Assembly (NCBI RefSeq): GCF_001428505.1
Contig: NZ_LMHU01000005.1
Location: 124,001-188,000, forward strand
Source of the DNA: Terrabacter sp. Root181
Lineage (GTDB): Bacteria > Actinomycetota > Actinomycetes > Actinomycetales > Dermatophilaceae
Length of the DNA stretch: 64,000 nt
Direction of reading: 5' to 3'
Shown piece by piece: positions 2,593 to 63,025 of this stretch. Each line of letters starts with the position of its first letter. The first letter of the stretch is position 1. The notes under the pieces were generated by a model, which saw only the letters and a program-made list of their open reading frames with translations, did no database searches and was not told where the DNA came from. The position numbers and the translations under genes were made by a program.

Positions 2593-3330
2593 ATGAGTCA
2601 GAGTGGGTTCACCCCGGTCGCGCGTCGGTCGGTGTCCGACGAGGTCTTCGCCGAGCTGCGCGACGCCGTGCTCACGGGCCGCTTCCAGCCCGGCGACGCG
2701 CTGCCGCCCGAGCGCGAGCTCGCCGCCTCCTTCGCCGTCAACCGGCACGCGGTGCGCGAGGCCCTCCAGCGGCTCCAGGTCGCCGGCTTCGTCCGCGTCG
2801 TCCACGGCGGCGGCACCACGGTGCTCGACGTGCGCAGCAGCGCCGGCCTCGACCTGCTCGCCCACCTCGCCCGCTCGGGCGAGGGGCTCGACCCGATGAT
2901 CCTGCGCGACGGGCTCGAGATGCGCCGCTGCATCGGCATCGAGGCGGCCCGCATCGCGGCCTCCCGCGCGACGGACGAGGCGCGGGCGCGCGTGGTGGCG
3001 GCAGCGGCGGCATACGGCTGTCCCGACATCGACGACGCCGACCGCGACTTCTGGCTCGCCGTCGTCGAGGCGAGCGGCAACCTCACCTTCCGGCTCGCGC
3101 TCAACTCGCTCGTCCACGCCATCGACGGCAGCCCCGAGGTCATGGACGCGCTGCTCGCCGCCGACCGCGCCGACCTGCTCCCGCACGCGCCGCTCGCCGC
3201 CGCCATCGCCGCCGGTGACGCCGCCGGTGCCGCGCGGCTCGCCGACACGATCCTCACCCAGGCCGTCGACGTGTGGGCCTCGCTCACCGACGACGGACGC
3301 ACGCTCGGCCCGATGACCAAGGGGGCGTGA
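2593..3330 (+). CDS. GntR-family transcriptional regulator, FadR/FCD type
   Basis: 245 residues. Residues about 12-75 form a winged helix (EVFAELRDAVLTGRFQPGD, PPERELAASFAVNRHAVREAL, LQVAGFVRVVHGGGTTV); the rest is an all-helical FCD-like ligand-binding domain with LRDGLEMRRCIGIEAARIA. It binds DNA as a dimer in this family; the effector may be a lipid or organic acid but cannot be read from sequence. Its stop overlaps the start of the next gene by one base (TGATG), so the two are co-transcribed. Confidence 0.9.
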   Translation: MSQSGFTPVARRSVSDEVFAELRDAVLTGRFQPGDALPPERELAASFAVNRHAVREALQRLQVAGFVRVVHGGGTTVLDVRSSAGLDLLAHLARSGEGLDPMILRDGLEMRRCIGIEAARIAASRATDEARARVVAAAAAYGCPDIDDADRDFWLAVVEASGNLTFRLALNSLVHAIDGSPEVMDALLAADRADLLPHAPLAAAIAAGDAAGAARLADTILTQAVDVWASLTDDGRTLGPMTKGA

Positions 3331-4157
3331 TGGTCGACATCATCCTCACGGCGATCCCCTTCTTCATCGCCTTCATCGTCATCGAGGTGCTCTCGCTGTG
3401 GCTGGCGCCCGACGACGACGAGGTGGGCTACGAGGTCCGCGACACCGTCACCAGCCTGACCATGGGCATCGGGAGCGTCGGCGTCGGCATCGTCTACAAG
3501 GCAGCCCAGCTCGTCGTCTACGCCGCGTTGTATGCCGTGACGCCGCTCCGCCTCGACACCTCGCTCTGGTGGGTGTGGGTCGTCATCTTCTTCGCCGAGG
3601 ACCTCGCGTACTACTGGTACCACCGCGCCCACCACGAGGTGCGCATCCTCTGGGCGAGCCACGTCGTGCACCACTCGAGCCAGCGCTACAACTTCTCGAC
3701 GGCGCTGCGCCAGACGTGGACGCCCTTCGGGGGCATCCCGTTCTGGGCGCCGCTGGCGCTCCTCGGCGTGCCGGTCTGGGCGATCTTCCTCCAGCAGTCG
3801 ATCTCGCTGCTCTACCAGTTCTTCCTCCACACCGAACGCGTCGGGAAGCTCTGGCGCCCAGTGGAACTCGTCATGAATACGCCCTCGCACCACCGCGTGC
3901 ACCACGGCATGAACAACGCCTACCTCGACCGCAACTACGGCGGCATCCTCGTCATCTGGGACCGCCTCTTCCGCTCGTTCGAGCCCGAGGGCGAGCGGGT
4001 CGTCTACGGCCTGACGAAGCAGCTGCGCACCTACAACCCGCTCGTCGTCGCCACCCACGAGTACGCGTCGATCTGGGCCGATGTGCGCGCCGCCCGCCGG
4101 TGGCGCGACCGCTGGGGCTTCGTCTTCCGCGGCCCCGGCTGGCAGCCCCGCACCTGA
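3330..4157 (+). CDS. Sterol desaturase / fatty acid hydroxylase superfamily membrane protein
   Basis: 275 residues with several membrane segments (about 2-25, 45-70, 85-105, 140-165). The histidine clusters that bind a di-iron centre in this superfamily are present: YYWYHRAHHE, HVVHHSSQRYN and HHRVHHGMN. The enzyme is expected to hydroxylate or desaturate a lipid at the membrane using O2; the exact lipid is unknown. The ATG overlaps the stop of the upstream FadR-like regulator, which suggests local lipid-responsive control. Confidence 0.88.
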   Translation: MVDIILTAIPFFIAFIVIEVLSLWLAPDDDEVGYEVRDTVTSLTMGIGSVGVGIVYKAAQLVVYAALYAVTPLRLDTSLWWVWVVIFFAEDLAYYWYHRAHHEVRILWASHVVHHSSQRYNFSTALRQTWTPFGGIPFWAPLALLGVPVWAIFLQQSISLLYQFFLHTERVGKLWRPVELVMNTPSHHRVHHGMNNAYLDRNYGGILVIWDRLFRSFEPEGERVVYGLTKQLRTYNPLVVATHEYASIWADVRAARRWRDRWGFVFRGPGWQPRT

Positions 4158-4267
4158 CCGAGCCGACGGCGGCGGCAGGCGCGGGGCCGCCACGGGCGGA
4201 CGGGCTGCGCTGGCCGTCGCGGGTCGAGGGAGGCGACACTGGAGGTCCCCGAGCGAGGAGGACCATC

Positions 4268-4837
4268 GTGAGCACGTACCAGGTCGGCTACTTCGTGGGC
4301 AGCCTGTCATCGACCTCGATCAACCGGACGCTGAGCCAGGCGTTGATCCGGCTCGCGCCGTCGGACCTCGAGTTCACGGAGATCCCGATCGGCAACCTGC
4401 CGCTCTACAGCCCGGACTTCGACAGCGACTACCCCGCCGAGGCCACGGCCCTCAAGGAGGCCATCGCCGCCTCGAGCGCCGTCCTCTTCGTGACGCCCGA
4501 GTACAACCGCTCGATCCCCGGCGCCCTGAAGAACGCCATCGACTGGGCGTCACGCCCCTGGGGCCAGAACTCCTTCAACCACGTGCCGGCCGCCGTCATC
4601 GGGGCCTCTCCCGGCCAGATCGGCACGGCGCTCGCCCAGCAGAGCCTGCGTGGCGTGCTGAGCTTCTGCAACGCCCGCCAGATGACCGCGCCCGAGGCCT
4701 ACCTCAGGCTCGCGCCGGGGGCGATCACCGACGACGGCGACGTCACCGACGAGTCGATGAGGACGTTCCTCACCGACTTCATGCGGGAGTTCCGCGACCA
4801 CGTCGAACGCGTCCTCGCGGTGCTGCCCCGCTCCTGA
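4268..4837 (+). CDS. NADPH-dependent FMN reductase family protein
   Basis: GTG start with AGGAGG about 10 bases upstream; 189 residues. The flavodoxin-like fold is shown by VGSLSSTSINRTL (phosphate-binding loop), PLYSPDFD, and the conserved VTPEYNRSIPGALKNAIDWASRP flavin-binding stretch given here in two parts: TPEYNRSIPGALKNAID then WASRP. Members reduce flavin, quinones or azo compounds with NAD(P)H in the cytoplasm. The gap of 110 bases and own ribosome site suggest an independent unit. Confidence 0.9.
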   Translation: MSTYQVGYFVGSLSSTSINRTLSQALIRLAPSDLEFTEIPIGNLPLYSPDFDSDYPAEATALKEAIAASSAVLFVTPEYNRSIPGALKNAIDWASRPWGQNSFNHVPAAVIGASPGQIGTALAQQSLRGVLSFCNARQMTAPEAYLRLAPGAITDDGDVTDESMRTFLTDFMREFRDHVERVLAVLPRS

Positions 4838-4839
4838 GC

Positions 4840-4870
4840 CCCGTTCCCGGCCGGGGCCCGTTCCCGGCCG
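4840..4870 (+). repeat. Short direct repeat downstream of the FMN reductase gene
   Basis: The 14-mer CCCGTTCCCGGCCG occurs at 4840-4853 and again at 4857-4870, each copy containing a self-complementary CCCGGCCGGG-like core. It immediately follows the stop codon and may act as a transcript end. No gene was seen in the 194-base interval before the next gene. Confidence 0.5.
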
Positions 4871-5031
4871 CGGCCCGTGCGGACCGCACGCGCGCCCGGT
4901 GGCACCCGGCGGCATACGGCCTCGGGTCCGTCGGGCGAAGCGGCCCACGCGGCCGGTGCGGCGGGTTACCGTGGCCAGACCTCGGGGAAAGTGCCGCGCC
5001 ATGAGCGCGCCCGCCCTCGAAAGGTCACTCC

Positions 5032-5826: not shown

Positions 5827-5885
5827 GGTCCCCAGGTGGGCGACCGCTGCTGCGGAACCACCTGCGTATGCCGTGACGCCGGCTT

Positions 5886-5926: not shown

Positions 5927-6037
5927 CGCATGGCGCGTCGGCCTACGACAGTGCTGCACGTGGTGCAGCAGTGACGTAGCGGTCGGTGGCGGGACCGCGG
6001 CGACCCGCGGTCCCGGCCACACGGCATACGCCGTCGG

Positions 6038-7081
6038 TCAGTGCGTGCTCGACGTCTTCCAGAGGTTGATGCCGCCCTCGACCGCGTGCTGGTCGATCCG
6101 GTCGAGCTCCTCGGTGCTGAAGTCGAGGTTGTCGAGCGAGCCGAGGCTGTCCTCGAGCTGGGCGACCGACGAGGCGCCGATGAGCACCGACGTGACGCGC
6201 TGGTCCCGCAGGATCCACGCGAGCGCCATCTGGGCGAGCGACTGACCGCGCGCCTGCGCCATCTCGTTGAGGGCACGGATGTGCGTGAGGTTCTGCTCGG
6301 TCAGCAGGTCGGTCGAGAGCGACTTGTCCTGCGAGGCGCGCGAGCCCGCGGGGACCCCGTTGAGGTACTTGTCGGTGAGCATCCCCTGCGCGAGCGGGCT
6401 GAAGGCGATGCAGCCGACGCCCTCCTCGCCGAGCACGTCGAGCAGGTCCTCCTCGACCCAGCGGTTGAGCATCGAGTAGCTCGGCTGGTGGATGAGCAGC
6501 GGCGTGCCCATGGCGCGCAGGATCTCGACGGCCTCCTTGGTGCGGGGACCCGAGTAGGAGGAGATGCCGGCATACAGCGCCTTGCCCTGGCGGACGGCCG
6601 TGTCGAGCGCGCCCATCGTCTCCTCGAGCGGCGTCGTCTCGTCGAAACGGTGGGAGTAGAAGATGTCGACGTAGTCGACGCCCATCCGCGCCAGCGACTG
6701 GTCGAGCGAGGACAGGACGTACTTGCGGTTGCCGCCGCCCTGGCCGTACGGGCCCGGCCACATGTCGTATCCGGCCTTCGTCGACAGGATCAGCTCGTCG
6801 CGGTAGCGCTTGAAGTCCTGCGCGTAGATCGCGCCGAAGTTGCGTTCGGCACTGCCGTAGGGCGGCCCGTAGTTGTTGGCGAGGTCGAAGTGCGTGACGC
6901 CGAGGTCGAAGGCGCGACGGAGCGTCGCGCGCTGGCGGTCGAGGGGGACGTCGTCGCCGAAGTTGTGCCACATCCCGAGCGAGACGGCCGGCAGGTCGAG
7001 CCCCGAACGGCCCGTGCGGCGGTAGGTCATCGAGTCGTAGCGGCTGCGGAGGGCCTGGTAGTCGTCGGCGTGAAGAGTCAT
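6038..7081 (-). CDS. mgrA: Aldo/keto reductase, YghZ/MgrA-like
   Basis: 347 residues, the usual length for the family. The (alpha/beta)8 catalytic tetrad is present: Asp and Tyr in FDLANNYGPPYGSAE, Lys in LSTKAGYDMWPGPYG, His in DYVDIFYSHRFD. The LSTKAGYDMWPGPYG and GGNRKYVLSSLDQSL segments are characteristic of E. coli YghZ (L-glyceraldehyde 3-phosphate reductase), which reduces aldehydes such as methylglyoxal or L-GAP with NADPH. The symbol is by similarity of these motifs and is tentative. Confidence 0.85.
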   Translation of the reverse strand: MTLHADDYQALRSRYDSMTYRRTGRSGLDLPAVSLGMWHNFGDDVPLDRQRATLRRAFDLGVTHFDLANNYGPPYGSAERNFGAIYAQDFKRYRDELILSTKAGYDMWPGPYGQGGGNRKYVLSSLDQSLARMGVDYVDIFYSHRFDETTPLEETMGALDTAVRQGKALYAGISSYSGPRTKEAVEILRAMGTPLLIHQPSYSMLNRWVEEDLLDVLGEEGVGCIAFSPLAQGMLTDKYLNGVPAGSRASQDKSLSTDLLTEQNLTHIRALNEMAQARGQSLAQMALAWILRDQRVTSVLIGASSVAQLEDSLGSLDNLDFSTEELDRIDQHAVEGGINLWKTSSTH

Positions 7082-7289: not shown

Positions 7290-7768
<479 letters not shown>

Positions 7769-10270: not shown

Positions 10271-11124
10271 TCCCGGCCCAGTTCGACTACCTGGCCCCCT
10301 CGACCGTCCAGGAGGCCATCGCGGCGCTCGCCGAGCACGGCGACGACGCCAAGGTCCTCGCGGGTGGGCAGTCGCTGCTGCCCATCCTGCGCATGCGGCT
10401 CAACGCCCCAGGGGTCGTCATCGACCTCGGGCGCATCGCCGAGCTCCAGGGCGTCTCCGAGGACGGTGACCACCTCGTCATCGGAGCCATGACGACGTAT
10501 GCCGCCGTGCTCGCCTCCGGGGCCGTGTCCACCCACGCGGCCCTGCTGTCCAAGGCGATCGCGACCGTGGCCGACCCGCAGATCCGCCACCGCGGCACCA
10601 TCGGCGGCGCGCTCGTGCACGCCGACCCGGCGGGCGACGTCGGGGCGCCGGCGCTCGCGCTCGAGGCCGAGCTCGTCATCGCGGGCGCGGACGGCTCGAC
10701 CCGCACCGTCGCGGCGGAGGACTTCTTCGAGGACCTCTTCACGACGGCCGTCGGCGAGGGCGAGCTGCTGACACAGATCCGCGTGCCGAAGCACACCGGC
10801 TGGGGCGCGCACTACGAGAAGTTCGTCCGGGTCAGCCACCAGTGGTCGATCGTCGGCGTCGCGGCCACGGTGCGCAGCGAGGGCGGCTCGATCGCCGAGG
10901 CCCGCGTCGGGCTGACCAACATGGGCTCGACGCCCCTGCGGGCCCGCTCGGTCGAGGAGGCCCTCGTCGGGCAGCCCGCGACCGACGAGGCGGTCCGTGC
11001 GGCCGTCGCGTCTGTAGCCGACGGCACCAACCCGCCCTCCGACCTCAACGGTGACTCCGACTACCGCAAGCACCTCGCCACCGTGCTGACGCGGCGCGCG
11101 GTCCTCGCCGCGGCAGGAGCGTGA
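10267..11124 (+). CDS. Molybdenum hydroxylase FAD-binding medium subunit (CoxM-like)
   Basis: 285 residues. The family signatures AGGQSLLPILRMRL (FAD pyrophosphate loop), ATVADPQIRHRGTIGGALVHADPAGD (the second FAD motif, residues about 98-122, around TIGG) and the C-terminal CO_deh_flav_C domain are present. It takes electrons from the 2Fe-2S subunit to FAD and on to an acceptor. Its ATG overlaps the stop of the large subunit by four bases; the next gene starts seven bases downstream. Confidence 0.93.
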   Translation: MIPAQFDYLAPSTVQEAIAALAEHGDDAKVLAGGQSLLPILRMRLNAPGVVIDLGRIAELQGVSEDGDHLVIGAMTTYAAVLASGAVSTHAALLSKAIATVADPQIRHRGTIGGALVHADPAGDVGAPALALEAELVIAGADGSTRTVAAEDFFEDLFTTAVGEGELLTQIRVPKHTGWGAHYEKFVRVSHQWSIVGVAATVRSEGGSIAEARVGLTNMGSTPLRARSVEEALVGQPATDEAVRAAVASVADGTNPPSDLNGDSDYRKHLATVLTRRAVLAAAGA

Positions 11125-11131: not shown

Positions 11132-11929
11132 ATGGACCTGACGCACTCCTTCACCGTCCCGACCTCGGTCGACGACGCGTGGGCCCTCTTCATGGACCTC
11201 GAGCGCGTCGGCGGCTGCTTCCCCGGGGCGACCGTGACGGAGGTGACCGACGACGGCTTCTCCGGCACGGTCAAGGTCAAGCTCGGGCCGATCGCGCTCG
11301 TCTACTCCGGGTCGGGCTCGTTCGTCGAGCGCGACGACGCGACGCACCACGCCGTCATCGAGGCCAAGGGCAAGGACAAGCGGGGCAACGGCACGGCCGG
11401 CGCCACCGTGACGATCACCCTGAGCCCCGACGGTGACGGCACCCGCGCCGACGTCGTCACCGACCTCGCCGTCACCGGCAAGCCGGCCCAGTTCGGCCGG
11501 GGCGTCATGCAGGACGTGTCCGACAAGCTCCTGGGCGCCTTCGTGGCCTGCATCGAGAAGCAGCTGACCGGTCCGGCGGACGAGCCGGAGGCCGCCCCGG
11601 CGGCGGCCGGCGCGGCGGCCGGCTCGTCGGCCGGCTCGTCGGCTGGGGCTTCGGCCGGCGCTTCGGCGGGCTACGTCGAGACGGGGTCCGACGCGCTCGC
11701 CGCAGACACCGGTCCGCAGGTGGGTGTCACGACGGCGGCGCCGGCACCCGCTGCGGCGGCACACACGCCGCCGCCCCCGCGCCGGGTCCCGGCCTCTGTC
11801 GAGGAGGACGCCCCCCTCGACCTCGGGTCGGCCGTCATGCCCGTGCTGATCCAGCGGTATGCCGGTTACGCAGCGGCTGCCGCCATCGGGGTCGTCATCG
11901 GTTGGCTCATCGGTCACCGGGGCGACTGA
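11132..11929 (+). CDS. CoxG-like SRPBCC protein with C-terminal membrane anchor
   Basis: 265 residues. Residues 1-145 are an SRPBCC fold of the CoxG type (HSFTVPTSVDDAWALFMDL, GGCFPGATV, YSGSGSFVERD, GRGVMQDVSDKLLG). Residues about 150-240 are a low-complexity Ala/Gly/Ser/Pro linker with SSAG/ASAG repeats. The end (about 242-262) is a hydrophobic helix with GxxxG-like small residues followed by HRGD. In carboxydotrophs CoxG helps recruit the Mo enzyme to the membrane; the same role is inferred here. It completes the S-L-M-G operon. Confidence 0.85.
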   Translation: MDLTHSFTVPTSVDDAWALFMDLERVGGCFPGATVTEVTDDGFSGTVKVKLGPIALVYSGSGSFVERDDATHHAVIEAKGKDKRGNGTAGATVTITLSPDGDGTRADVVTDLAVTGKPAQFGRGVMQDVSDKLLGAFVACIEKQLTGPADEPEAAPAAAGAAAGSSAGSSAGASAGASAGYVETGSDALAADTGPQVGVTTAAPAPAAAAHTPPPPRRVPASVEEDAPLDLGSAVMPVLIQRYAGYAAAAAIGVVIGWLIGHRGD

Positions 11930-13683: not shown

Positions 13684-14346
13684 ATGTCCCACGTCATCAT
13701 CGTCGGCGGCCACGGCAAGGTCGCCCTGCTCGCCGCCCCGCTCCTCGTCTCCGACGGCCACGACGTCACCTCCGTGGTCCGCAACCCGGAGCACGTCGCC
13801 GCCGTCGAGGCGACCGGTGCCACGGCGGCCGTGCTCGACGTCGAGCACGCCACGACCGAGCAGATCGCGGAACTCGTGCGCGGGAGCGACGTCGTCGTGT
13901 GGTCGGCCGGCGCCGGCGGCGGCAGCCCCGAGCGGACGTATGCCGTCGACCGCGACGCCGCGATCCGCTCGATGGACGCCGCCGCACAGGCCGGGGTCGA
14001 GCGCTACGTCATGGTGTCCTACTTCGGCGCCGGGCCCGACCACGGCGTGCCCGAGGACAGCTCCTTCTACCCGTACGCCGAGGCCAAGACCGCGGCCGAC
14101 GAGCACCTCCAGGGCACCGCCCTCGCATGGACCATCCTGCGCCCGAGCGGACTGACCACCGACGCGGCCACCGGCCACATCGCCGCCGGTCAGGACATCG
14201 TCGCTGGCACGGTGTCGCGCGACAACGTCGCCCACGTGATCCGTGCGGTCGTCGAGCACCCCGAGTCGACCGCCCGCCGCATCCTGCCCTTCAACGACGG
14301 CTTCCAGCCCATCGGCGACGTCGTCGCCGCCACCCCCTCCGCCTGA
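13684..14346 (+). CDS. NAD(P)-binding SDR-like (atypical) protein
   Basis: 220 residues from ATG 13684. VIIVGGHGKVALLAAPLL is the N-terminal nucleotide-binding loop of the atypical SDR/NmrA-like group; WSAGAGGGS, RYVMVSYFGA, YAEAKTAADEHL and WTILRPSGL are the usual later motifs. Close relatives are annotated as NAD(P)H-binding proteins or YwnB/YhfK-like; substrate unknown, some act as redox sensors. The 246-base region upstream (13438-13683) contains no gene; it must hold promoters for this gene and the divergent surface protein. Confidence 0.85.
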   Translation: MSHVIIVGGHGKVALLAAPLLVSDGHDVTSVVRNPEHVAAVEATGATAAVLDVEHATTEQIAELVRGSDVVVWSAGAGGGSPERTYAVDRDAAIRSMDAAAQAGVERYVMVSYFGAGPDHGVPEDSSFYPYAEAKTAADEHLQGTALAWTILRPSGLTTDAATGHIAAGQDIVAGTVSRDNVAHVIRAVVEHPESTARRILPFNDGFQPIGDVVAATPSA

Positions 14347-15336: not shown

Positions 15337-15665
15337 CAGCCCTCGCCCGCGCCGGCCCGGGCGCGTGCGACCCGCTCGGGGTCGCCGGCCGCCTCGACGA
15401 CGGTCGCGAGGTGGGCGCGCAGCTGCTTGGCGAGAGACCACTGGGTGACCTCGTGGGTGATCGAACGCACCCAGCCCGGGTCGACGGCATACGCCAGCGT
15501 CAGCACGACGAGGGTGCCGTCGTCCTCGGCGTCGAAGCGCCACGTGAAGGGTTCCGGGGTCAGGTGCGGGGCCAGCCGGAGCGTCGGCTCGCCCACCGAC
15601 CCGGCCAGCGCGCGGGCGACGGGCGGCGGGAGGGGGACGTGGACGTCGGCACTGACCTGGGGCAC
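15336..15665 (-). CDS. Small SRPBCC-like protein
   Basis: 109 residues from GTG 15665. The start is chosen because it is the first codon giving the conserved-looking [20 protein letters not shown]; a GAGG lies almost against the codon, which is closer than usual. The pattern (strand, helix, then [18 protein letters not shown] and a long C-terminal helix) fits the polyketide cyclase/START-like fold used for binding hydrophobic ligands. It is translationally coupled to the ornithine cyclodeaminase-like gene. Function unknown. Confidence 0.65.
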
Positions 15666-27696: not shown

Positions 27697-27739
27697 GAGG
27701 TCGGTATGCCGCCGGGTCAGCCCCGCGCATACCGACCTC
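27697..27739. terminator. 13-bp perfect hairpin between convergent genes
   Basis: GAGGTCGGTATGC (27697-27709) pairs with 27727-27739 around a 17-base loop. It ends the metalloprotease transcript and faces the lipoprotein gene. One arm carries a copy of the GTATGCC heptamer. Confidence 0.78.
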
Positions 27740-41778: not shown

Positions 41779-42627
41779 GTGAAGATCCTGTCGATCCAGT
41801 CCCACGTCGCCTACGGCCACGCCGGCAACTCGGCCGCGGTCTTCCCGCTCCAGCGGCTCGGCCACGACGTCTATCCCGTCCTCACGGTGACCTTCTCCAA
41901 CCACACCGGCTACGGCTCGACGAAGGGCCCGCTCATCGCGCCCGCCGACGTCGCAGCCGTCATCGACGGTGTCGAGGAGCGGGGTGCCTTCCCGGCGATC
42001 GACGCCGTGCTCTCGGGCTACCAGGGCGCCGAGTCGGTCGGCGAGGTCGTGCTCGACGCCGTCGCGCGGGTCAAGGCGGCCAACCCGTCCGCGGTCTACT
42101 GCTGCGACCCGGTCATGGGCGACGTCGGCCGTGGCTTCTTCGTGCGCGAGGGCATCCCCGAGTACATGCGCGACCACGTCGTGCCGAAGGCCGACATCGT
42201 CACGCCCAACCAGTTCGAGCTCGAGTTCCTCGTCGGCCGCGCGGTCGCGACGCAGGCCGACCTCGTCGCGGCGTCCCGCGAGCTCGTCGCGCAGGGGCCG
42301 TCCGTCGTGCTCGTCACGAGCGCCCTGACCTCCGACACCCCCGAGGGCTCGATCCAGATGGCCTGTGTCACGGCCGACGACGCCTGGGTCGTGACGACCC
42401 CGATGCTGCCGATGACGGTGCGCGGCGGGGGCGACGTGACCGCTGCGGTCTTCCTCGCGCACTACCTGACCGACGGCCCGGAGGTGGCCCTCCGCCGCAC
42501 GGCGGCGACGATGTATGCCGTGCTGGAGCGCACCCACGCGAGCGGCTCCGACGAGATGCTCCTCGTCGCGGAGCAGGACGCGATCGCGCACCCCGACGAA
42601 GTTTTTGAAATCTCTTCGATCACTTGA
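41779..42627 (+). CDS. pdxY: Pyridoxal kinase PdxY
   Basis: 282 residues from GTG 41779. Ribokinase-fold marks: SIQSHVAYGHAGNSAAVFPL, TVTFSNHTGYG, VYCCDPVMGD, DIVTPNQFELEFL, and GGGDVTAAVFLAHYL with the catalytic Asp (GxGD). It phosphorylates pyridoxal to pyridoxal 5'-phosphate in the salvage pathway. The final codons (DEVFEISSIT) are notably less G+C-rich than the rest. Confidence 0.93.
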   Translation: MKILSIQSHVAYGHAGNSAAVFPLQRLGHDVYPVLTVTFSNHTGYGSTKGPLIAPADVAAVIDGVEERGAFPAIDAVLSGYQGAESVGEVVLDAVARVKAANPSAVYCCDPVMGDVGRGFFVREGIPEYMRDHVVPKADIVTPNQFELEFLVGRAVATQADLVAASRELVAQGPSVVLVTSALTSDTPEGSIQMACVTADDAWVVTTPMLPMTVRGGGDVTAAVFLAHYLTDGPEVALRRTAATMYAVLERTHASGSDEMLLVAEQDAIAHPDEVFEISSIT

Positions 42628-48824: not shown

Positions 48825-49823
48825 ATGCGCCCGCTCGTCGACCTCGTCCTCGTCGTGGCGCTCCTGGGTCTCGCGATCCACGCCGCACGCACCGATCCCC
48901 GCCGCTGGCGCACCGGGGTCCTCCTCCTCGGAGCGATCTGGGCCGCGCTCTCGGCGGTGGGGGTGGGCGTGCTCGTCCTGCCGTGGGCCGCGTCGGTCGT
49001 GCTGGGGCTCCTCTTCGTCGGCAACGGTCTGCGACTGGTGCGTCCCGAGGGCCGCGGCCCGACCAACGTCGTGGCGCTCGTCCTCGGCCTGGCGATGCTT
49101 GCCGCGACCGTCGCCGCCATCGGGCTCGTCGGGTCCGGCACGTCCGGCACGGCGGGCACGTCGGGTCCGGCCGTCGTCGGCGCGGTCGTCCTGCTGCTGC
49201 CGGGCTACCCGGCGCTCGCGTTCGCCGGCTACGCGCTCTACTGCCTGACGTACCGCCGCCACAGCGTGCGGCCCGATCCCGCGGCGGTCGTCGTGCTCGG
49301 GTCGGGGCTCGTGGGTGGCACGGTGCCGCAGCTGCTCGCCCACCGGCTCGACGCGGCCGCCGACGCCTGGCGCGCGGAGCGCGACCGTGGTCACGACCCG
49401 CTGCTCGTCCCGAGCGGTGGGCAGGGCGACGACGAGCCCATGGCGGAGGGCGTGGCCATGACCGCCTACCTCGTGGCCCACGGCATACCTCCCCAGTCGG
49501 TCGCGACGGAGGACCGGGCGACGACGACCGAGGAGAACCTGCTGCTGTCGCGCGAGATCCTGCGGTCGCGGGGGCTCTGGGCCGCCGGCCACCTCCGCGT
49601 GGTCACGAGCAACTACCACGTCGGGCGTGCAGCCCTGCTGACCCGGCGCCTCGGCATCGACGCCGACGTCACGGGTGGCCCGACGGCGTGGTACTTCCTG
49701 CCGAGCGCCTTCCTGCGTGAGTTCCTCGCGGCGCTCACGCTCCACCCGCGCACCAACCTCGCGGGGCTCGGCCTCTGGGCCGCGTTCACGGCCTACCTCT
49801 CGTATGCCGTCCTGCCCGGTTGA
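48825..49823 (+). CDS. YdcF/SanA-like DUF218 membrane protein
   Basis: 332 residues. Four to five N-terminal membrane helices (about 1-125) precede a DUF218 domain: AVVVLGSGLVGGTVPQLLAHRLDAA (parts AVVVLGSGL and LLAHRLDAA), VPSGGQGDDEPMAEG, TTTEENLLLSREIL and VTSNYHVGRAALL. This is the pattern of ElyC/SanA/YdcF, linked in enterics to envelope or lipid-carrier homeostasis. Divergent from the AlaRS-like gene (77-base spacer). Confidence 0.9.
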   Translation: MRPLVDLVLVVALLGLAIHAARTDPRRWRTGVLLLGAIWAALSAVGVGVLVLPWAASVVLGLLFVGNGLRLVRPEGRGPTNVVALVLGLAMLAATVAAIGLVGSGTSGTAGTSGPAVVGAVVLLLPGYPALAFAGYALYCLTYRRHSVRPDPAAVVVLGSGLVGGTVPQLLAHRLDAAADAWRAERDRGHDPLLVPSGGQGDDEPMAEGVAMTAYLVAHGIPPQSVATEDRATTTEENLLLSREILRSRGLWAAGHLRVVTSNYHVGRAALLTRRLGIDADVTGGPTAWYFLPSAFLREFLAALTLHPRTNLAGLGLWAAFTAYLSYAVLPG

Positions 49824-49838: not shown

Positions 49839-51380
49839 TCAGGGCGTGGCGGGCTGCTGCTGCGCCAGGTCGTCGCGCAGCACGCGCTTGAGCAGCTTGC
49901 CGCTCTGGTTGCGGGGCAGCTCGTCGACGAAGTGGATCGCCTTGGGCAGCTTGAACGGTGCGAGGGTCGCGCGGGCGTGGTCGACGAGCTCGGTCTCGGT
50001 CACCGTCCGGCCGTCGCGGAGGACGACGACGGCCGTGACGGCCTCGACCCAGCGCTCGTGGGGGGTGGCGATGACGGCCACCTCGGCGACGGCCGGGTGG
50101 GTGTAGAGCGCGTCCTCGACCTCGCGTGAGGCGACCATGACGCCGCCGGTGTTGATGACGTCCTTGATGCGGTCGACGACGGTGAGGTAGCCCGCGTCGT
50201 CGCGGGTCACGAGGTCGCCGGAGTGGAACCACCCGTCCCGGAAGGCCTCCGTCGTCGCGTCCTGCTTGTTCCAGTAGCCGGTGCACAGCTGGGGTGAGCG
50301 GTAGAGCAGCTCGCCCGGTTCGCCCGCCGGGACGTCGCCGCCCTCCGGGTCGACGACGCGCGCCTCGACGAAGAGGACGGTGCGGCCGCACGCCTCGGGT
50401 CGCTCGGCGTGCTCCTCGGGCCGCAGCACCGTCGCCAGGGGACCGATCTCGGACTGGCCGAAGCAGTTCCAGAAGCCGAGCGCGGGCAGTCGCTCCTGGA
50501 GCCGGTCGCGCACCGGGACCGGCATGATCGAGGCGCCGTAGTACGCCTTGCGCAGCGAGCCGAGGTCGGCCGTGTCGAGGGCCGGGTGGTTCGACAGCGG
50601 CACCCAGACGGTCGGCGCGAGGAAGAGCGACCCGATGCCCTGCGAGGCGACCCGCTCGAGGATCGTCGCGACGTCGGGGCGCGGCAGCAGGTGGTTCGTC
50701 GCGCCCACCGCGAGGTAGGGCAGGAGGAAGACGTGCATCTGCGCCGAGTGGTAGAGCGGCATCGAGTGGAGCGGGGCGTCGTCCTCGCGCAGGTCGAGAC
50801 CGACGATGCACGAGACGTACTCGTGGACGAGCGCGCGGTGCGTCATCATCGCGCCCTTCGGCTGCGAGGTCGTGCCGGACGTGTAGAGCAGCTGGACGAT
50901 GTCGGTGTCACGCGTCCCGACGTCGAGCACGGGCACGTCGCCCTCGCTCCAGCCCGGCAGCACCGCGTCGTCGCCGCCGTGGAGCAGCAGCACCTGCTCG
51001 AGGTCGGTGTCGCCGCGCACGGCCTCGACGGAGGGCCGCAGCGCCACGTCGACGAGCGCCACCCGGGCGCCCGAGTCGCGCAGCAGGTAGGTCAGCTCGG
51101 GTCCGGTGAGGGCGTAGTTGATCGGGACGTGCACGAGACCCGCCCGGGCGCAGCCGAGGTAGGCGAGCAGGTAGGCGTCGGAGTTGACCCCCACCGTCGC
51201 GACGCGGTCACCGGCGGCGAGCCCGAGACCCAGCAGGTGCGCGGCAGCGCGGCTCACGGCGTCGTCGAGGGCGGCATACGTCCACGAGCGGTCGTCGAAG
51301 ACGAGCGCCACGCGCTCGGGGTGACGCGACGCGCTGCGGCGGACGATGTCGTCGACGGTGCTCGAGGTGATGGCGCTCAT
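49839..51380 (-). CDS. Acyl-CoA synthetase (AMP-forming)
   Basis: 513 residues. ANL-superfamily motifs: YTSGTTSQPKGAMMTHRAL (P-loop, A3), FWNCFGQSE (A5), WFHSGDLVTRDDAGYL (A7), VDRIKDVINTGG (A8) and catalytic Lys in NQSGKLLKRVL (A10). It activates a fatty or aromatic acid to the CoA thioester via an acyl-adenylate. Its ATG overlaps the stop of the upstream enoyl-CoA hydratase gene by four bases, so the pair works in fatty or carboxylic acid catabolism. Confidence 0.93.
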   Translation of the reverse strand: MSAITSSTVDDIVRRSASRHPERVALVFDDRSWTYAALDDAVSRAAAHLLGLGLAAGDRVATVGVNSDAYLLAYLGCARAGLVHVPINYALTGPELTYLLRDSGARVALVDVALRPSVEAVRGDTDLEQVLLLHGGDDAVLPGWSEGDVPVLDVGTRDTDIVQLLYTSGTTSQPKGAMMTHRALVHEYVSCIVGLDLREDDAPLHSMPLYHSAQMHVFLLPYLAVGATNHLLPRPDVATILERVASQGIGSLFLAPTVWVPLSNHPALDTADLGSLRKAYYGASIMPVPVRDRLQERLPALGFWNCFGQSEIGPLATVLRPEEHAERPEACGRTVLFVEARVVDPEGGDVPAGEPGELLYRSPQLCTGYWNKQDATTEAFRDGWFHSGDLVTRDDAGYLTVVDRIKDVINTGGVMVASREVEDALYTHPAVAEVAVIATPHERWVEAVTAVVVLRDGRTVTETELVDHARATLAPFKLPKAIHFVDELPRNQSGKLLKRVLRDDLAQQQPATP

Positions 51381-52174
51381 GGGGTGTCTCCGTGGGTCGG
51401 GCGGTCGGGATGCGGGGCGGCGAAGGCGGCGAGCAGGGCGCCGGCCTCGGCGCCCGCCGAGAGGCGCGCGATGGTCGCGGCCTCGTCGGCGAGCTGGGCG
51501 GCATACGTCCGCTCGCCCGACCGGCGCAGCAGGCGGGCCGCCTCACCGACGGCCTCGCGCGGAAGGGCGGCGATGGCGGCGACCACCTCACCGGCCCGGG
51601 CGTCGAGCGTGTCGGCGGGGCACACCTCGGTGACGAGCCCCCAGTCGAGCGCCGTCGCCGCGTCGATCGGCGTGCCGGTGAGCAGGAAGAGAGCGGCCCG
51701 CCGCGCGCCCACCGCGGCGGGCAGGAGAGCGCTCACCCCGCAGTCGGGTGACAGGCCGACGGAGGGGTAGGCCGCCACGAACGTCGCGTGGTCGGCGGCG
51801 AGCACCACGTCGGAGGCGAGGACGAGACCCACGCCCGCGCCGGCGGCCGCACCCTGGACGACGGCGACGACAGGAGTCGGCAGCGCCCGCAGCGCCGAGA
51901 GCACCTCGTGCAGGACCCCGGCCAGCTCGGCGACGAACGCCCGGCGCTCGGGGGCCGCGGCCATGGCGCGCACGTCTCCCCCGGCGCAGAAGAGCCGGCC
52001 GTCAGCACGGATGACGACCACGTGCACCCGCTCCGAGACGCTCGCGATCCCGGCGACCGCGTCGCGCAGCGCGAGTGCGGTGGGCAGGTCCACGGCGTTG
52101 CCGGCGTCGGGTCGCGCGAGCCGGATCGTGGCCACGCCGCCGGACACCGACAGCATCGGCACCGTCGTCGTCAC
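51377..52174 (-). CDS. Enoyl-CoA hydratase/isomerase family protein
   Basis: 265 residues from GTG 52174 with GGAGG about 15 bases upstream. Crotonase marks: GRLFCAGGDVRAMA (oxyanion hole), VQGAAAGAGVGLVLASDVVLAAD (in parts VQGAAAGAGVGL and SDVVLAAD), PSVGLSPDCG with the second catalytic position Asp rather than Glu, GLVTEV. It hydrates or isomerises enoyl-CoA. Operon with the acyl-CoA synthetase. Confidence 0.92.
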   Translation of the reverse strand: MTTTVPMLSVSGGVATIRLARPDAGNAVDLPTALALRDAVAGIASVSERVHVVVIRADGRLFCAGGDVRAMAAAPERRAFVAELAGVLHEVLSALRALPTPVVAVVQGAAAGAGVGLVLASDVVLAADHATFVAAYPSVGLSPDCGVSALLPAAVGARRAALFLLTGTPIDAATALDWGLVTEVCPADTLDARAGEVVAAIAALPREAVGEAARLLRRSGERTYAAQLADEAATIARLSAGAEAGALLAAFAAPHPDRPTHGDTP

Positions 52175-52281
52175 GGGTTCATCCTGCCTCCCGCGGCGCC
52201 GGTTGGGGAGGCCCGGCCCACCCGAAGGACAGATGGCGTATGCCGTCCGGCGCGGCCCCGGGGCCCGTACAGTGACTGGGC

Positions 52282-53619: not shown

Positions 53620-53946
53620 ATGACGATCCCGGGGCACCCAGGCGCGGAGGCGGCATACGACGGCAACCTCATGGCCGGTCCGCTGTCCGAGCTCTTCGCT
53701 CTCGACGTCACCGTGGCGGTGGTCCGGTGCCGCGGCTGCGGCTCGTCGACGGAGGTCGCGACGCTCCGCGTCTACGGGCCCGACCCCGGTCTCGTCGGCC
53801 GGTGCCCCGGCTGCGACGACGTGCTGCTCCGCGTCGTCCGCACCCCAGACGCGGTGTGGCTCGACCTCGGGGGCGTCACCTCGCTCCGCGTGCCTGCTCC
53901 TCGCGTTGCGCCCGCCGGGGACGGGGACGAGTCGGCTCGAACCTGA
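53620..53946 (+). CDS. DUF6510 family zinc-ribbon protein
   Basis: 108 residues. YDGNLMAGPLSELFALDVTVA is the conserved DUF6510 start (given here as DGNLMAGPLSELF); CRGCG and CPGCDD form a zinc ribbon. Gene order Mo oxidoreductase, flavin reductase, DUF6510 is shared by several actinobacteria as far as I recall, so it may be an electron-transfer or assembly partner; its function is unknown. It has the strong site AAGGAGG ahead of ATG 53620. Confidence 0.85.
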   Translation: MTIPGHPGAEAAYDGNLMAGPLSELFALDVTVAVVRCRGCGSSTEVATLRVYGPDPGLVGRCPGCDDVLLRVVRTPDAVWLDLGGVTSLRVPAPRVAPAGDGDESART

Positions 53947-58500: not shown

Positions 58501-61127
58501 GGGAAGCGCAGCTGGGTCGCGACGACGAGGCGGTCGAGCGCCTCCCGGGCGGCGACGTCGAGCGGCGCGGCCGGGATCGGCTCGGCGAGCCAGCGCTGGA
58601 GGATCGACGTCGCGAGCTGGACCTCGGGCGCCGAGCGCTGCTGGGCGAGGAAGACGCGGAAGACGGCCTCCTCGAGGTCGGGTGTGCGCTCGAAGTCGGT
58701 GACGCCGTAGTGGAGCAGCACGCGGGCGAGCTTGTCGCGGAAGTCAGCCGAGAGGCCGGCGCGGTCGACGTCGAGGCTCTGGAGGTAGGAGTGGAAGTGC
58801 TCGCGCGGGCTGTGCACGAGCAGCTCGGTGTGCCGCTCCTCGGCCGCGGGGCGGTTGCGGCTCAGTTCGGCGAAGTCGGTGAGCAGGTCGAGGACCGCGA
58901 TCTCCTCGGCGAGCGGGATGGTGCCGCTGGCGGCGAGCTCGTCGCGAGCCGTGAGGTAGCCGGCGAGCACCCTGCGGTCACCGCTGGGGTCTCCGTCGAA
59001 GCCGAGGACGCTCGCCGAGAGGTCCTCGATACCGCGGTCGACGCGCTCGCGCACGCTCGCGTGACCCGCGCTCGAGTCGGGCAGGTCGAGGTCGACGGTC
59101 TCGGTGGCCGCTGTCTCGGCGACCTCGGCCTCGTCGCCGGTGGGCTCGAGGCGCACGAGCGGCGCGCCGGTCTCGACCTGGCTGCCGACGCTGACGAGGA
59201 GCTCGCGGACGCGCGCCGCGAAGGGCGCCGGCAGCACCGTCTCCATCTTCATCGACTCGAGGACGAGCACCGGAGCACCGGCGGCCACCTCGTCGCCGAC
59301 GGCGGCCGGGGTCGCGACGACCAGCGCGGGCGCGGGCGACCGCACGACGCCGCCCTCGTCACGCGAGACGCGGTGGGTGACCCCGTCGACCTCGACGAGG
59401 TGGACGGGTCCGTGGGTGGCGGTGACGAGGCGGTGCGCGCGTCCCTCGACGACGATGCGGCCGGCATACTCGTCGATGCGGTCGAGCGTCGCGTCGACGA
59501 CGTGCTCGTCGGCGCCGTTGGTGATGGAGACGCGGTAGCGGTGCGACGCCGTGCGCAGCACCATGACCTTGTATGCCGTGCCGCGCAGCTTGAGGTCGAT
59601 GGCGCGGCCGACCGTGTGCTGCACCTGCGGGCGGCCACCGCGGGCCGACGCGAGCAGGCGGGCCCGCTCGATGGCCTCGGCGTCCTCGTAGGCCTCGATG
59701 CCGGCGGCGACGAGCGCGACACCGGAGTGGCGGTGCGAGACGAGGCGGCCCTCGGCGCGGACGCGGTCGATCCAGCCGGTGTCGGCCGAGCCGTCGATGA
59801 TCTCGGGCTGGTCGAGCAGGTCGAGGATGAAGCTCTTGTTCGTCGAGCCGCCGTCGATGACGACGGTCGTCTCGGCCATGGCGCGGCGCAGGCGGGCGAG
59901 GGCCTCGTCGCGGTCGCGGCCGTGGGCGATGATCTTGGCGATCATCGAGTCGAAGTCGGCGGGGATCGAGTCGCCTTCTCCCACACCGGTGTCGACGCGG
60001 ATGCCGGGGCCGGCGGGGAACTGGAGCAGGCTGATGTGGCCGGGGCTCGGCGCGAAGTCGCGGTCGGGATCCTCGGCGTTGAGGCGGGCCTCGACGGCGT
60101 GGCCGCGCTGGGTGGGTCGCCCGCCGGGGAGGTCGTCGAGGCGGCCGCCGTTCGCGACGTGGATCTGGAGCTTGACGAGGTCGGTGTCGGTGACGACCTC
60201 GGTGATGGGGTGCTCGACCTGGAGGCGGGTGTTGACCTCGAGGAAGGCGAAGAAGCGCTCGCCCGGGTGGTAGAGGAACTCGACCGTGCCGGCGCCGGCG
60301 TAGCCCACGGCGATGGCGAGGCGCTCGGCGCTCGTGCGGACCTCGTCCTCCTGCTCGGGGCGCAGCACCGGCGACGAGGACTCCTCGATGACCTTCTGGT
60401 TGCGGCGCTGCACCGAGCAGTCGCGCACGCCCACGGCCCACGCCGAGCCCTGGCCGTCGGCGATGACCTGCACCTCGATGTGGCGGGCGCCGGTCACGAG
60501 CTTCTCGAGGAAGACGACGCCCGAGCCGAATGCGCGCTGCGCCTCGTCGCGGGTGCGCTCGTAGGCGTCGGTGAGGTCGGCGTCGGAGTCGACGCGACGG
60601 ATGCCGCGGCCACCGCCACCGGCGGTCGCCTTGAGCATGAGCGGGTAGCCGATGCGCGCGGCCGCGGCCTTCGCGTCCTCGAGGGTGTCGACGCCGCCGC
60701 GGCTCCACGGAGCGACCGGCACGCCGACCTCCTCGGCGATGAGCTTGCTGCCGATCTTGTCGCCGAGCTTGCGCATCGCGTCGGGGCTGGGGCCGATGAA
60801 GGTGACGCCGACGCGCTCGCACAGGTCGGCGAACGCGGGGTCCTCGGCGACGAAGCCCCAGCCGACCCACGCCGCGTCGGCGTTCGTCGCGCGCAGGGCG
60901 CGCTCGAGGACGGCGTGGTCGAGGTAGGGGCGCGCCGAGGCCGGCCCGAGGTCGTACGCGTGGTCGCTCTCGCGGACGAACATCGCCCGCCGCTCGCCCT
61001 CGGTGTGAAGCGCGATCGTCTCGATGCGGTGCCCGTCGCGGCCTGCCGCGGCGTTGAGGTCCCGCACCGCGTGGATGAGCCGCATGGCGGCCTCGCCGCG
61101 GTTCACGATGGCGATGCGCGAGATCAT
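55590..61127 (-). CDS. Single-chain acyl-CoA carboxylase (biotin carboxylase, BCCP and carboxyltransferase fused)
   Basis: 1845 residues. Biotin carboxylase occupies about 1-460 (VNRGEAAMRLIHAVRD, KATAGGGGRGIR at about 166-177, EVNTRLQVEHPITE). BCCP is about 595-665 with biotinyl-Lys627 in ESMKME. A long central region (about 680-1310) resembles the AC-central part of eukaryotic ACC. The carboxyltransferase fills about 1330-1845 (PQGLNKAGIIVAVVSSP, GGEINIVVAGINVGAQPYWN in parts, PVVVLANLSGFDGSPESM). It carboxylates an acyl-CoA, using bicarbonate and ATP. This fused yeast-type layout is rare in bacteria, which usually split AccA/B/C/D. Confidence 0.93.
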   Translation of the reverse strand: MISRIAIVNRGEAAMRLIHAVRDLNAAAGRDGHRIETIALHTEGERRAMFVRESDHAYDLGPASARPYLDHAVLERALRATNADAAWVGWGFVAEDPAFADLCERVGVTFIGPSPDAMRKLGDKIGSKLIAEEVGVPVAPWSRGGVDTLEDAKAAAARIGYPLMLKATAGGGGRGIRRVDSDADLTDAYERTRDEAQRAFGSGVVFLEKLVTGARHIEVQVIADGQGSAWAVGVRDCSVQRRNQKVIEESSSPVLRPEQEDEVRTSAERLAIAVGYAGAGTVEFLYHPGERFFAFLEVNTRLQVEHPITEVVTDTDLVKLQIHVANGGRLDDLPGGRPTQRGHAVEARLNAEDPDRDFAPSPGHISLLQFPAGPGIRVDTGVGEGDSIPADFDSMIAKIIAHGRDRDEALARLRRAMAETTVVIDGGSTNKSFILDLLDQPEIIDGSADTGWIDRVRAEGRLVSHRHSGVALVAAGIEAYEDAEAIERARLLASARGGRPQVQHTVGRAIDLKLRGTAYKVMVLRTASHRYRVSITNGADEHVVDATLDRIDEYAGRIVVEGRAHRLVTATHGPVHLVEVDGVTHRVSRDEGGVVRSPAPALVVATPAAVGDEVAAGAPVLVLESMKMETVLPAPFAARVRELLVSVGSQVETGAPLVRLEPTGDEAEVAETAATETVDLDLPDSSAGHASVRERVDRGIEDLSASVLGFDGDPSGDRRVLAGYLTARDELAASGTIPLAEEIAVLDLLTDFAELSRNRPAAEERHTELLVHSPREHFHSYLQSLDVDRAGLSADFRDKLARVLLHYGVTDFERTPDLEEAVFRVFLAQQRSAPEVQLATSILQRWLAEPIPAAPLDVAAREALDRLVVATQLRFPVIGDLARSVRFRWFDQPLVDEERQSVLAGVRDKLATLAAEPDAPDHTARIDELAAIPEQIVRFLTERLHEESPERLPEHEPMLEVLIKRHYREHELHGLRTFSEGGRPFAVADYTLDDRPTHLTSTIGGVDELVPGSALDAAVSNDVWSRATGLQSVVDLYLRWPQEPESPDAASEQLATLLQQLPFAQDVRRVAVAVSAGRGGPVGYFTFRPVDGTLAEDRLVRGVHPMVGRRLNLWRLTSFDVTRLEAPEDVLLYECVARDNSDDHRLVALAQVRQIVVVRDESGQVSGLPHVERAIANCLEAIRRVRASRGAKGSRLDMNHVWVQIWPTIEADLGQLTALQSRIAPVTAGAGIEEVLVQANVAGAPGEAPLPIAGRFFYQPGSGVTGTLGAPPTEPLKPLDDYASKVVRARRRGLVYPYELQSMIAGDGGTVVEHDLDDSGTLVPVDRPQGLNKAGIIVAVVSSPTVRHPEGVTRVVLSGDPLRSLGSVAEAECARVIAAIDLAERLQVPLEWYSLSAGARISMDSGTENMDWVARALKRIIEFTQAGGEINIVVAGINVGAQPYWNAEATMLMHTKGILVMTPDSAMVLTGKQSLDFSGGVSAEDNFGIGGYDRVMGPNGQAQYWAKDLAGARAILMAHYDHAYVSPGESGPRRVSTSDPSHRDVTLFPHELADSGFKTVGDIFSSLTNPDRKKPFDIRTLMRAVSDQDHEPLERWAGMADAETAVVQDAHLGGIPVTLIGIESKSVPRRGFPPTDGPDTYTAGTLFPRSSKKVARAVNAASGNRPVVVLANLSGFDGSPESMRSLQLEYGAEIGRAIVNFDGPIVFTVVSRYHGGAFVVFSKTLNPRMTVLAVEGSFASVLGGAPAAAVVFSRDVDARTASDPRVTELEGRLASASGVERARLATEVAELRTSVRAEKLGQVASEFDAVHSIHRAVSVGSVDAVIDAHEMRPRIIAAIEAGLQG

Positions 61128-61897: not shown

Positions 61898-61955
61898 CGC
61901 GCCGGCTCGAGCCGCCGGGTCCGGCCAACGTCTCCGCGTCTGCCGCTGCCCGGGG

Positions 61956-62609
61956 TCACCGCTTCCGGGCGATGGTCAGGCCATCGAAGGCGGTCAGGAC
62001 GACGGACTCGACGCGATCGTCGGAGACCACCAGGTCGTTGAAGGCGCGCAGCGCGACGGTGTTCGCGTCGTCGGTCTCGGGATCGGCGATCCGGCCGCTC
62101 CACAGGACGTTGTCCGCGAGCAACAGGCCCCCCGGACGAACCCGCGGCACCAGCTCGGCCCAGTAGGCGGCATACGCCGGCTTGTCCGCATCGATGAAGA
62201 CCAGGTCGATGTCCGCCGCCGTCGGCAGTGCCCGCAGCGTGTCCAGCGCCGGCGCTATACGCAGCTCGATCCGGTCAGCCAGGCCGGCGGAGGCCCACGC
62301 CCGTCGGCCGATCTCGGTCCACTCTGCGCTGACGTCGCAACACAGCAGTGAGCCTCCCTCGGCCAGCCCCCGGGCGATGCACATGCTCGAGTAGCCCGTG
62401 AACGTCCCCACCTCGACGGCCCGGCGCGCGCCGATCAGTCGGGCGAGCAGGGTGAGCAGCTGTCCCTGGTCGTCGCCGATCTGCATCCCGGCCGCGTCCC
62501 CGAGCCCGGCCGTCTCCGCCTGGAGCCCCCGGACCACGGGATCGGGGCGCCAGGTGCCGTGAGCGACGGCGTAGGAGCGGATCGCGTCCGTCACCGGGAA
62601 GCTGCGCAT
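61956..62609 (-). CDS. O-methyltransferase (class I SAM, COMT-like family 3)
   Basis: 217 residues. AVEVGTFTGYSSMCIARGL is the SAM motif I, LLCCDVSAEW motif II, DLVFIDADKPAYAAYW carries the metal-binding Asp and the post-motif, and GGLLLADNVLWSGRI the second metal pair. It is a Mg-dependent catechol or caffeoyl-CoA O-methyltransferase type; the acceptor is unknown. Confidence 0.93.
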   Translation of the reverse strand: MRSFPVTDAIRSYAVAHGTWRPDPVVRGLQAETAGLGDAAGMQIGDDQGQLLTLLARLIGARRAVEVGTFTGYSSMCIARGLAEGGSLLCCDVSAEWTEIGRRAWASAGLADRIELRIAPALDTLRALPTAADIDLVFIDADKPAYAAYWAELVPRVRPGGLLLADNVLWSGRIADPETDDANTVALRAFNDLVVSDDRVESVVLTAFDGLTIARKR

Positions 62610-62683
62610 CCTCGAACGCTACGCCCAAGGTCAGGGCCGCGCCCGGGTGATGGTCCCAGGCCGTTCGGCGACACACTGGCTGC

Positions 62684-63025
62684 ATGGTCGAGGTCGATCC
62701 CGAGCGCTTCGAGGTGATGGTGGGCGAAGCGCTCGACGGCATACCCGGAGAGCTGGGTGAGCTCATGAGCAACGTGGCCGTCACCGTGCAGCACGACAGC
62801 GGGCCGCCAGGTCTTCTGGGGCTGTACCAGGGGGTGCCGTTGACGCGTCGGTCGGCGTTCTACGCCGGCGTCCTGCCTGACCGGATCACGATCTTCCGGC
62901 GTGCCATCTGTGCCGTGTGCACCAGCGACTCCGAGGTGGTCGACCAGGTTCGGCGGACGGTCATCCACGAGGTGGGCCATCACTTCGGGATCGGGGACGC
63001 CCGGCTGCGCGAGCTCGGGTACTGA
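62684..63025 (+). CDS. Small metallopeptidase (zincin-like, DUF1025 type)
   Basis: 113 residues. The zinc site is VIHEVGHHFGIGD (HExxHxxGxxD-like minimal gluzincin pattern). FERMVGEALD-like start (here FEVMVGEALDGIP) and LLGLYQGVPLTRRS complete the family. Members are minimal cytoplasmic zincins without known substrate. ATG 62684 has little ribosome site; 74 bases separate it from the divergent methyltransferase. Confidence 0.9.
   Translation: MVEVDPERFEVMVGEALDGIPGELGELMSNVAVTVQHDSGPPGLLGLYQGVPLTRRSAFYAGVLPDRITIFRRAICAVCTSDSEVVDQVRRTVIHEVGHHFGIGDARLRELGY

Follow-up and report, generated by a model that had tools for sequence, protein, structure and literature searches.

The 64,000-nucleotide stretch of the Terrabacter sp. 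Root181 genome analyzed here (contig NZ_LMHU01000005.1, positions 124,001–188,000; the window) is dotted with the octamer CGGCATAC (GTATGCCG on the opposite strand), which is part of a family-wide system of abundant, maintained and dialect-bearing words. With a probability of roughly two in three, CGGCATAC is a DNA uptake sequence (DUS) in its local dialect, served by a Flp/Tad pilus together with ComEA and ComEC, judging by its likeness to known DUS and by its association with a recurrent tad locus, tad-1. A broader proposal is also favored, albeit with somewhat less confidence: the family would have a language of at least seven uptake dialects, read by the Flp/Tad pilus and marking the exchange partners, with mobile elements breaking the pilus ATPase to stop the exchange. 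The uptake reading fits best because of the dialects, the density of the word, the conservation of its positions within the genus, its scarcity in mobile inserts and the link to the Flp/Tad locus.

Abundance and maintenance of the octamer

A first-pass annotation of the window had noticed 40 heptamers, 19 as GTATGCC and 21 as GGCATAC on the plus strand, and the recount gave identical numbers, the coordinates listed there being correct within 0–8 bases (e.g., 6023 for 6022 and 51500 for 51508). The random expectation of about six at about 72% G+C also agreed with the composition-only value for such a 7-mer, i.e., ~5.75 at the actual 72.5% G+C of the window. As for the G or C described on the flanks, the leading C was present in 39 of the 40 copies, making the octamer CGGCATAC, or a longer word, the repeat unit, but the G on the opposite side of the heptamer proved a mere preference (24/40). 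The most over-represented 6-mer of the window was GGCATA (40 seen vs 18.3 expected under a maximal-order Markov model, z 7.2), and 40 of the 47 CATA tetramers sit inside GGCATAC. The Markov-frequency check suggested in the annotation left the word far over expectation and, thus, did not refute its over-representation: in a pooled sample of the own genome (the window plus 262.6 kb of other stretches, 326,559 letters in total with 2,559 masked N), CGGCATAC was seen 140 times against 6.6 and 8.1 expected at orders 2 and 3, respectively, and against 31.0 at order 4, which already holds most of the word. The octamer was preferentially preceded by A (54% of the 140 copies). The reversed-word control counts in the genome searches were inflated through overlap with CGGCATACGGC.

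The complete own genome (G000; G and L numbers designate genomes and loci) contained 2231 copies in 4.94 Mb on 12 contigs, of which 1096 were in forward and 1135 in reverse orientation. A 27.3-kb contig of this genome (G000:C2, locus L006) had a G+C content of 63% and a single CGGCATAC copy in 20 kb, and may be a plasmid or acquired DNA of another kind. Only one pair of copies in 402 kb of the own genome was closer than 60 bases (L005:2457–2478, inverted, with the starts 14 bases apart), so close terminator-like pairs are not typical here; such pairs do occur among the uptake words of Neisseria.

The balance of the two strands, already used in the annotation as an argument against an FtsK-orienting site, was found at each scale: 19/21 in the window, 1096/1135 in the genome, and 207/183 (binomial p 0.24) for the corresponding word CGGCATCC in 20 stretches of the single 4.02-Mb contig of the relative G034, where no stretch was strongly one-sided and the two halves, not set by origin or terminus, gave 105/89 and 102/94. 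Chi words favor one strand by replichore. The lack of strand skew in the own genome and in the G034 chromosome speaks against both FtsK-orienting (KOPS) and Chi sites, and both were rejected. A recombination word of the Chi type, recognized by AdnAB or RecBCD and with dialects following the enzyme, would agree with the density, the chromosomal abundance and the scarcity in mobile inserts, but the balanced strands speak against it and it leaves the tad-1 link and the tadA splitting described below unexplained, which makes it improbable.

According to simple gene calls, 31 of the 39 octamers of the window are genic and 8 are outside, the latter including all three copies that the annotation had placed between genes (4911, 5866 and 27704). 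In the same 402 kb of the own genome the density of CGGCATAC was 0.42 per kb within and 0.37 per kb outside genes (rough calls), and 103 of the 127 genic copies read Tyr-Ala or Ala-Tyr. The last number could be taken for a functionless by-product of biased mutation or codon-pair preference. This was rejected and has hardly any probability left, in view of the non-genic copies, the single-step precursors CGGCGTAC and CGGCATGC, which are still common in the pooled sample (36 and 34, respectively), and the codon retention. The latter was followed in the comEC region (20 kb) of eight genomes of the genus, compared in 56 ordered pairs that are not independent. At positions with a conserved amino acid, the rare codon TAT was kept in 72% of cases within the word (n = 97) against 13% outside (n = 78), GCA, also rare, in 89% (n = 121) against 16% (n = 1268), and CCG in 100% (n = 42) against 66% (n = 6866). 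The view of the annotation that the codon choice follows the DNA word was, therefore, borne out.

Motif copies compared within the genus were identical in 352 of 418 cases, compared to 46% for 8-mers of equal G+C content. Sites were hardly ever common to different genera: when G000 was compared with eleven genomes from outside its genus, only 1 of 30 was identical (the match was with G011). The retention of synonymous codons within the genus, combined with such low identity across genera, indicates that it is the DNA word that is maintained, with turnover at longer time scales. The copies are held in place by selection or by biased exchange.

Distribution in the family and dialects

The first survey covered 58 genomes, i.e., the own one and 57 relatives. 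The eight other genomes of the same genus contained 1423–2358 copies of CGGCATAC each, the 27 other members of the family were either rich (939–4724) or poor (11–293), and the 22 genomes from other families had 2–167. Among 186 genomes of the family representing 53 genera, 30 genera reached at least 277 copies per Mb and 23 did not exceed 102 per Mb, with the best genome taken for each genus, so that the rich genera include some poor species. The family surveyed appears to include genera placed in other NCBI families (the own genome belongs to Intrasporangiaceae there); Flexivirga (NCBI Dermacoccaceae), in or close to the family, is rich in the word. Of 80 further comEC loci 23 were examined, 10 from the outgroup and 13 from the family or close to it. 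The outgroup loci (Streptomyces, Nocardioides, Arthrobacter, Tessaracoccus and Phytoactinopolyspora) had 0–4 CGGCATAC copies in 14–22 kb, and the Allobranchiibius locus contained 28 CGSCGTAC. Two species of a single genus differed: Intrasporangium flavum (L118) had no CGGCATAC in 22 kb and I. oryzae (L119) had 10. In a quick five-gene chromosomal tree (midpoint root, support not read) the CGGCATAC users were scattered through the family, suggesting that the trait is old and has undergone changes and losses. One genome, G150 (loci L077–L080 and L206), was the only CGGCATAC-poor one among 31 of its genus and had an unusually weak ComEC match (2.6e-93), possibly because its comEC is truncated or cut by a contig break.

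Several of the 23 CGGCATAC-poor genera use near-variant words, CGGCATCC, CCGCATAC and CGSCGTAC, further called dialects, the dialects other than CGGCATAC being recognized in samples of 20–440 kb or by counts of a single pattern. In G034, with its complete chromosome, CGGCATCC was seen 390 times in 400 kb (32 expected), in its sister on the five-gene tree, G024, 14 times in 20 kb (1.3 expected), and CCGCATAC was seen 9 times in 20 kb of G028 (0.3 expected), with the expectations less sure for G+C-rich words. At one site of G000 both G034 and G024 carry GGATGCCG, their own dialect. A weak excess of CGGCATCC was present in G009 (26 vs 7.7 expected in 54 kb). The genome-wide numbers of CGSCGTAC were 3660–5257 in G126, G128, G129, G130, G031 and G060 against 173–1044 in the non-user genomes of the same count; G027 (1216) and G032 (1933), with ~1.2 and 2 times the next-highest non-user density, respectively, are uncertain users. 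Two words were used together in G020 (CGGCATTC 28 and CGGCATAC 13 in 38 kb) and in G011, G035 and Flexivirga caeni (CGTCATAC with CGGCATAC). No convincing abundant word was detected in stretches of 14–83 kb from G010, G014, G016, G017, G018, G021, G022, G058, G097, G131, G133 and G150.

The dialect may switch even within a genus. G126 contained 19 copies of CGGCATAC and 4580 of CGSCGTAC, compared to 3681 and 370 in its congener G127 and 1062 and 803 in G033, and G065 had 37 of CGGCATAC and 1183 of GGTCTACG, compared to 1251–1660 and 234–315 in four congeners. Such changes bear on two rival explanations. A site of a nucleoid or chromosome-organizing protein, or a self-mark for defense, under direct selection at each site, would account for the strong conservation of copies in place within the genus, but a within-genus change of dialect would break thousands of sites, and the near absence of positions kept across genera is odd for locally functional sites; this explanation is, like the Chi-like one, improbable. 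Somewhat better, though still unlikely, is a target, or part of a target, recognized by an orphan methyltransferase or by a repair system, made and kept by methylation-dependent repair and with dialects following the enzyme, as in the cyanobacterial highly iterated palindrome HIP1. HIP1 is likewise very abundant and its alternate forms accompany their own methyltransferases, as described in PMC4390886, and the patchy switches within genera would suit a swapped enzyme. The HIPs, however, are palindromic, and the word found here is an asymmetric octamer, different from its own reverse complement, on which ground a palindromic HIP was rejected; furthermore, the dialects vary at single inner positions, sometimes via transversion (CGGCATAC to CGGCATCC), and the tad-1 link is left unexplained. 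In G034 (L055–L074) the one-mismatch forms AGGCATCC and TGGCATCC were found 0 and 2 times against 11.2 and 9.3 expected, respectively, and most other such forms of the dialect were not nearly so scarce.

Putative uptake machinery and the interrupted tadA

ComEC was present in all 35 family genomes searched and in 180 of the 186 in the wider set. In contrast to the tadA described below, most of the ComEC matches listed spanned the greater part of the protein in a single frame, and some were partial. ComEA was encoded at all 35 comEC loci, and an alignment of these proteins looked ordinary, with no dialect-linked feature seen by eye. The ComEA frame at L037 of the word-poor G022, which had no TadA match at 1e-60, was 137 aa long, i.e., shorter than at the other 34 loci. 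PilM, characteristic of type IVa pili, was found in just 2 of the 35 genomes, and this type of pilus was rejected as the carrier. The recurrent locus tad-1 has the order tadA-tadB-tadC-flp-tadE-tadF-tadG and often lies beside prfB. Its TadA, TadB, TadC, TadE and TadG have Pfam support, and its Flp and TadF, as well as leuS, degV, the LysR-type gene, prfB, ftsE, ftsX and smpB, were named by eye or position, without a family match. In Micrococcus luteus, transformation requires tad genes and ComEC, as reported in PMC4322843, a study with knockouts of each open reading frame in two tad clusters.

TadA was matched at E 1e-60 in 168 of the 186 family genomes, a cut that lets paralogues through (the best matches of G117 and G158 are paralogues). 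Of the 18 genomes without a match 14 were CGGCATAC-poor, among them all genomes of six genera; the remaining four were the incomplete G138 and G205 and the users G154 and G160. Most users, nevertheless, possess ComEC, ComEA and the tad-1 genes. All six TadA-less genera fall among the 23 CGGCATAC-poor genera of the 53 (hypergeometric p 0.0044) and also among the 15 genera without a known dialect (p 2.2e-4), or among 17 when g20 and g25 are added to the non-users (p 5.4e-4), kinship being ignored in all three tests. The first of them is the cleanest, since four of the 15 genera (g55, g64, g65 and g68) were examined for CGGCATAC only.

In at least 15 genomes among the matches listed (G000, G001, G006, G015, G199, G061, G064, G118, G123, G137, G159, G175, G183, G195 and G197), tadA was in pieces on one contig, 3.9–79 kb apart and three in number in G183, with the break points near query residues 80, 87, 100, 141, 168, 205, 230 and 300. 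In G000 a 10.0-kb insert that encodes a serine recombinase lies between the two parts (L093:12071–13985 and L193:2483–3367), and in G008 the interrupted gene is tadC, with 10.2 kb inserted near residue 110. All five inserts scanned, four in tadA (G000, G001, G006 and G199) and one in tadC (G008), carried a serine-recombinase domain (PF00239 and PF07508, with PF07508 only in G199); a recombinase was also recognized by eye in the insert of G015. The paralogous TadA was unsplit by eye in one set of listed matches, and in another it was partial in G160, G195, G205, G155 and G166. In 45.2 kb of inserts from five user genomes (G000, G001, G006, G015 and G008), 4 copies of the word were found against 27.8 expected (p 2.5e-8); the evidence for a word conserved in the core and scarce in acquired DNA comes from the single 20-kb region compared among eight genomes and from these five inserts. 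According to PMC4774983, mobile elements are known to interrupt competence genes and in this way to avoid being eliminated by transformation. By this analogy, the repeated splitting of tadA supports, but does not prove, a role of tad-1 as the transformation pilus here.

In the proposed uptake process, DNA would enter through the Flp/Tad-type competence pilus of tad-1, together with ComEA and ComEC, while a DNA-binding component at the cell surface would prefer the word-bearing fragments. Recombination of the imported fragments into the chromosome would spread and repair the word by biased exchange. If the taste of the receptor changed, the genome would then be rewritten in another dialect; once the pilus was lost, the word would decay. 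Mobile elements liable to removal by such exchange would inactivate tadA, or tadC, by inserting into it. The annotation was sound in its codon and strand arguments, but it had left the DUS, the best-fitting option, unconsidered; its own options, a methylation, nucleoid or recombination site, seem less likely.

A number of observations weigh against the uptake reading, beginning with the own genome of the window, whose tadA is split. The users G154 and G160 (100% complete) have their tadA lost or decayed, with only a fragment in G160; the user G117 also has only a fragment, and the incomplete user genomes G138, G158 and G205 have no intact tad-1 tadA either. Both tad-1 and ComEC are retained in nine of the 15 genera with no known dialect, and the four examined for CGGCATAC only may use an unseen dialect. 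The divergence of TadA, Flp, TadE, TadF and TadG did not track the dialect among 15 genomes and no receptor was found there; this wider test did not bear out TadF as the dialect receptor, for which the pair G065/G066 had given a hint (49% for TadF vs 65–80% for TadA, TadB, TadC, TadE and TadG). A search of open-access papers found no report of uptake or transformation in this family, and the rarity of sites common to different genera belongs to the same side of the balance.

Table 1. Copies of the word in the window (positions count from the first letter of the window; strand is that of CGGCATAC)
Feature	Position	Strand	Basis
CGGCATAC copy	3008..3015	+	word count
CGGCATAC copy (GTATGCCG on +)	3530..3537	-	word count
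CGGCATAC copy, intergenic by simple gene calls	4910..4917	+	
CGGCATAC copy, intergenic by simple gene calls	5866..5873	-	
CGGCATAC copy, intergenic by simple gene calls	6022..6029	+	
CGGCATAC copy	6568..6575	+	
CGGCATAC copy	10497..10504	-	
CGGCATAC copy	11857..11864	-	
CGGCATAC copy	13938..13945	-	
CGGCATAC copy	15485..15492	+	
CGGCATAC copy, outside gene calls	18898..18905	+	
GGCATAC copy, the only one without leading C	19223..19229	-	
CGGCATAC copy	20035..20042	-	
CGGCATAC copy	20862..20869	+	
CGGCATAC copy	21454..21461	-	
CGGCATAC copy	21883..21890	-	
CGGCATAC copy	23810..23817	+	
CGGCATAC copy, outside gene calls	24963..24970	-	
CGGCATAC copy	27440..27447	+	
CGGCATAC copy, intergenic by simple gene calls	27704..27711	-	
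CGGCATAC copy	29153..29160	-	
CGGCATAC copy	29425..29432	+	
CGGCATAC copy	30401..30408	-	
CGGCATAC copy	33999..34006	+	
CGGCATAC copy	37084..37091	-	
CGGCATAC copy	39672..39679	+	
CGGCATAC copy	41279..41286	+	
CGGCATAC copy	42513..42520	-	
CGGCATAC copy	43941..43948	+	
CGGCATAC copy	48351..48358	-	
CGGCATAC copy	49481..49488	+	
CGGCATAC copy	49802..49809	-	
CGGCATAC copy	51272..51279	+	
CGGCATAC copy	51499..51506	+	
CGGCATAC copy, intergenic by simple gene calls	52238..52245	-	
CGGCATAC copy, outside gene calls	53651..53658	+	
CGGCATAC copy	59462..59469	+	
CGGCATAC copy	59571..59578	-	
CGGCATAC copy	62168..62175	+	
CGGCATAC copy	62737..62744	+	

Comparison with known systems

To our knowledge, uptake sequences have been described in two Gram-negative families, in agreement with the open-access literature searched (preprints not included), in which nothing relevant on the present word was found. 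If the uptake reading is true, self-DNA tagging would have arisen independently in high-GC Gram-positives that use another pilus, i.e., it would evolve repeatedly. The natural switches of dialect, some of them within a genus, would help to find the receptor, and many little-studied soil bacteria would be predicted to be naturally transformable, with an indication of how to tag DNA for them.

By analogy, the word system probably works like the DUS of the Neisseriaceae, which is also a short asymmetric word with thousands of copies, near-variant dialects and some genomes lacking it, as described in PMC3630211; the neisserial DUS is, according to PMC2397512, strongly conserved and absent from recent acquisitions. 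In contrast, the Neisseriaceae use the ComP receptor and a type IV pilus, while the present hosts are high-GC Gram-positives with a Flp/Tad locus and PilM is rare among them. The likeness need not mean a common ancestry of the words. The uptake signal sequence (USS) of the Pasteurellaceae is similar in being an abundant asymmetric core word for the choice of self-DNA (PMC1939737), but the word and the hosts are different and an experimental uptake bias is known only there.

Micrococcus luteus belongs to the same NCBI order as the hosts of CGGCATAC. It is an actinobacterium with tad clusters, ComEA and ComEC (PMC4322843), although the term 'uptake sequence' is absent from the main text of that paper. 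The cyanobacterial HIP1, with its alternate HIPs, resembles CGGCATAC in being a very abundant octamer that gives way to different words in some genomes, but differs, as stated in PMC4390886, in being palindromic and methyltransferase-linked. Finally, the insertions in comYC, comK, comFA and comM discussed in PMC4774983 are comparable in that mobile elements repeatedly interrupt the transformation machinery, except that the target here is tadA, and at least once tadC, hit at several positions in a locus whose role in transformation is inferred.

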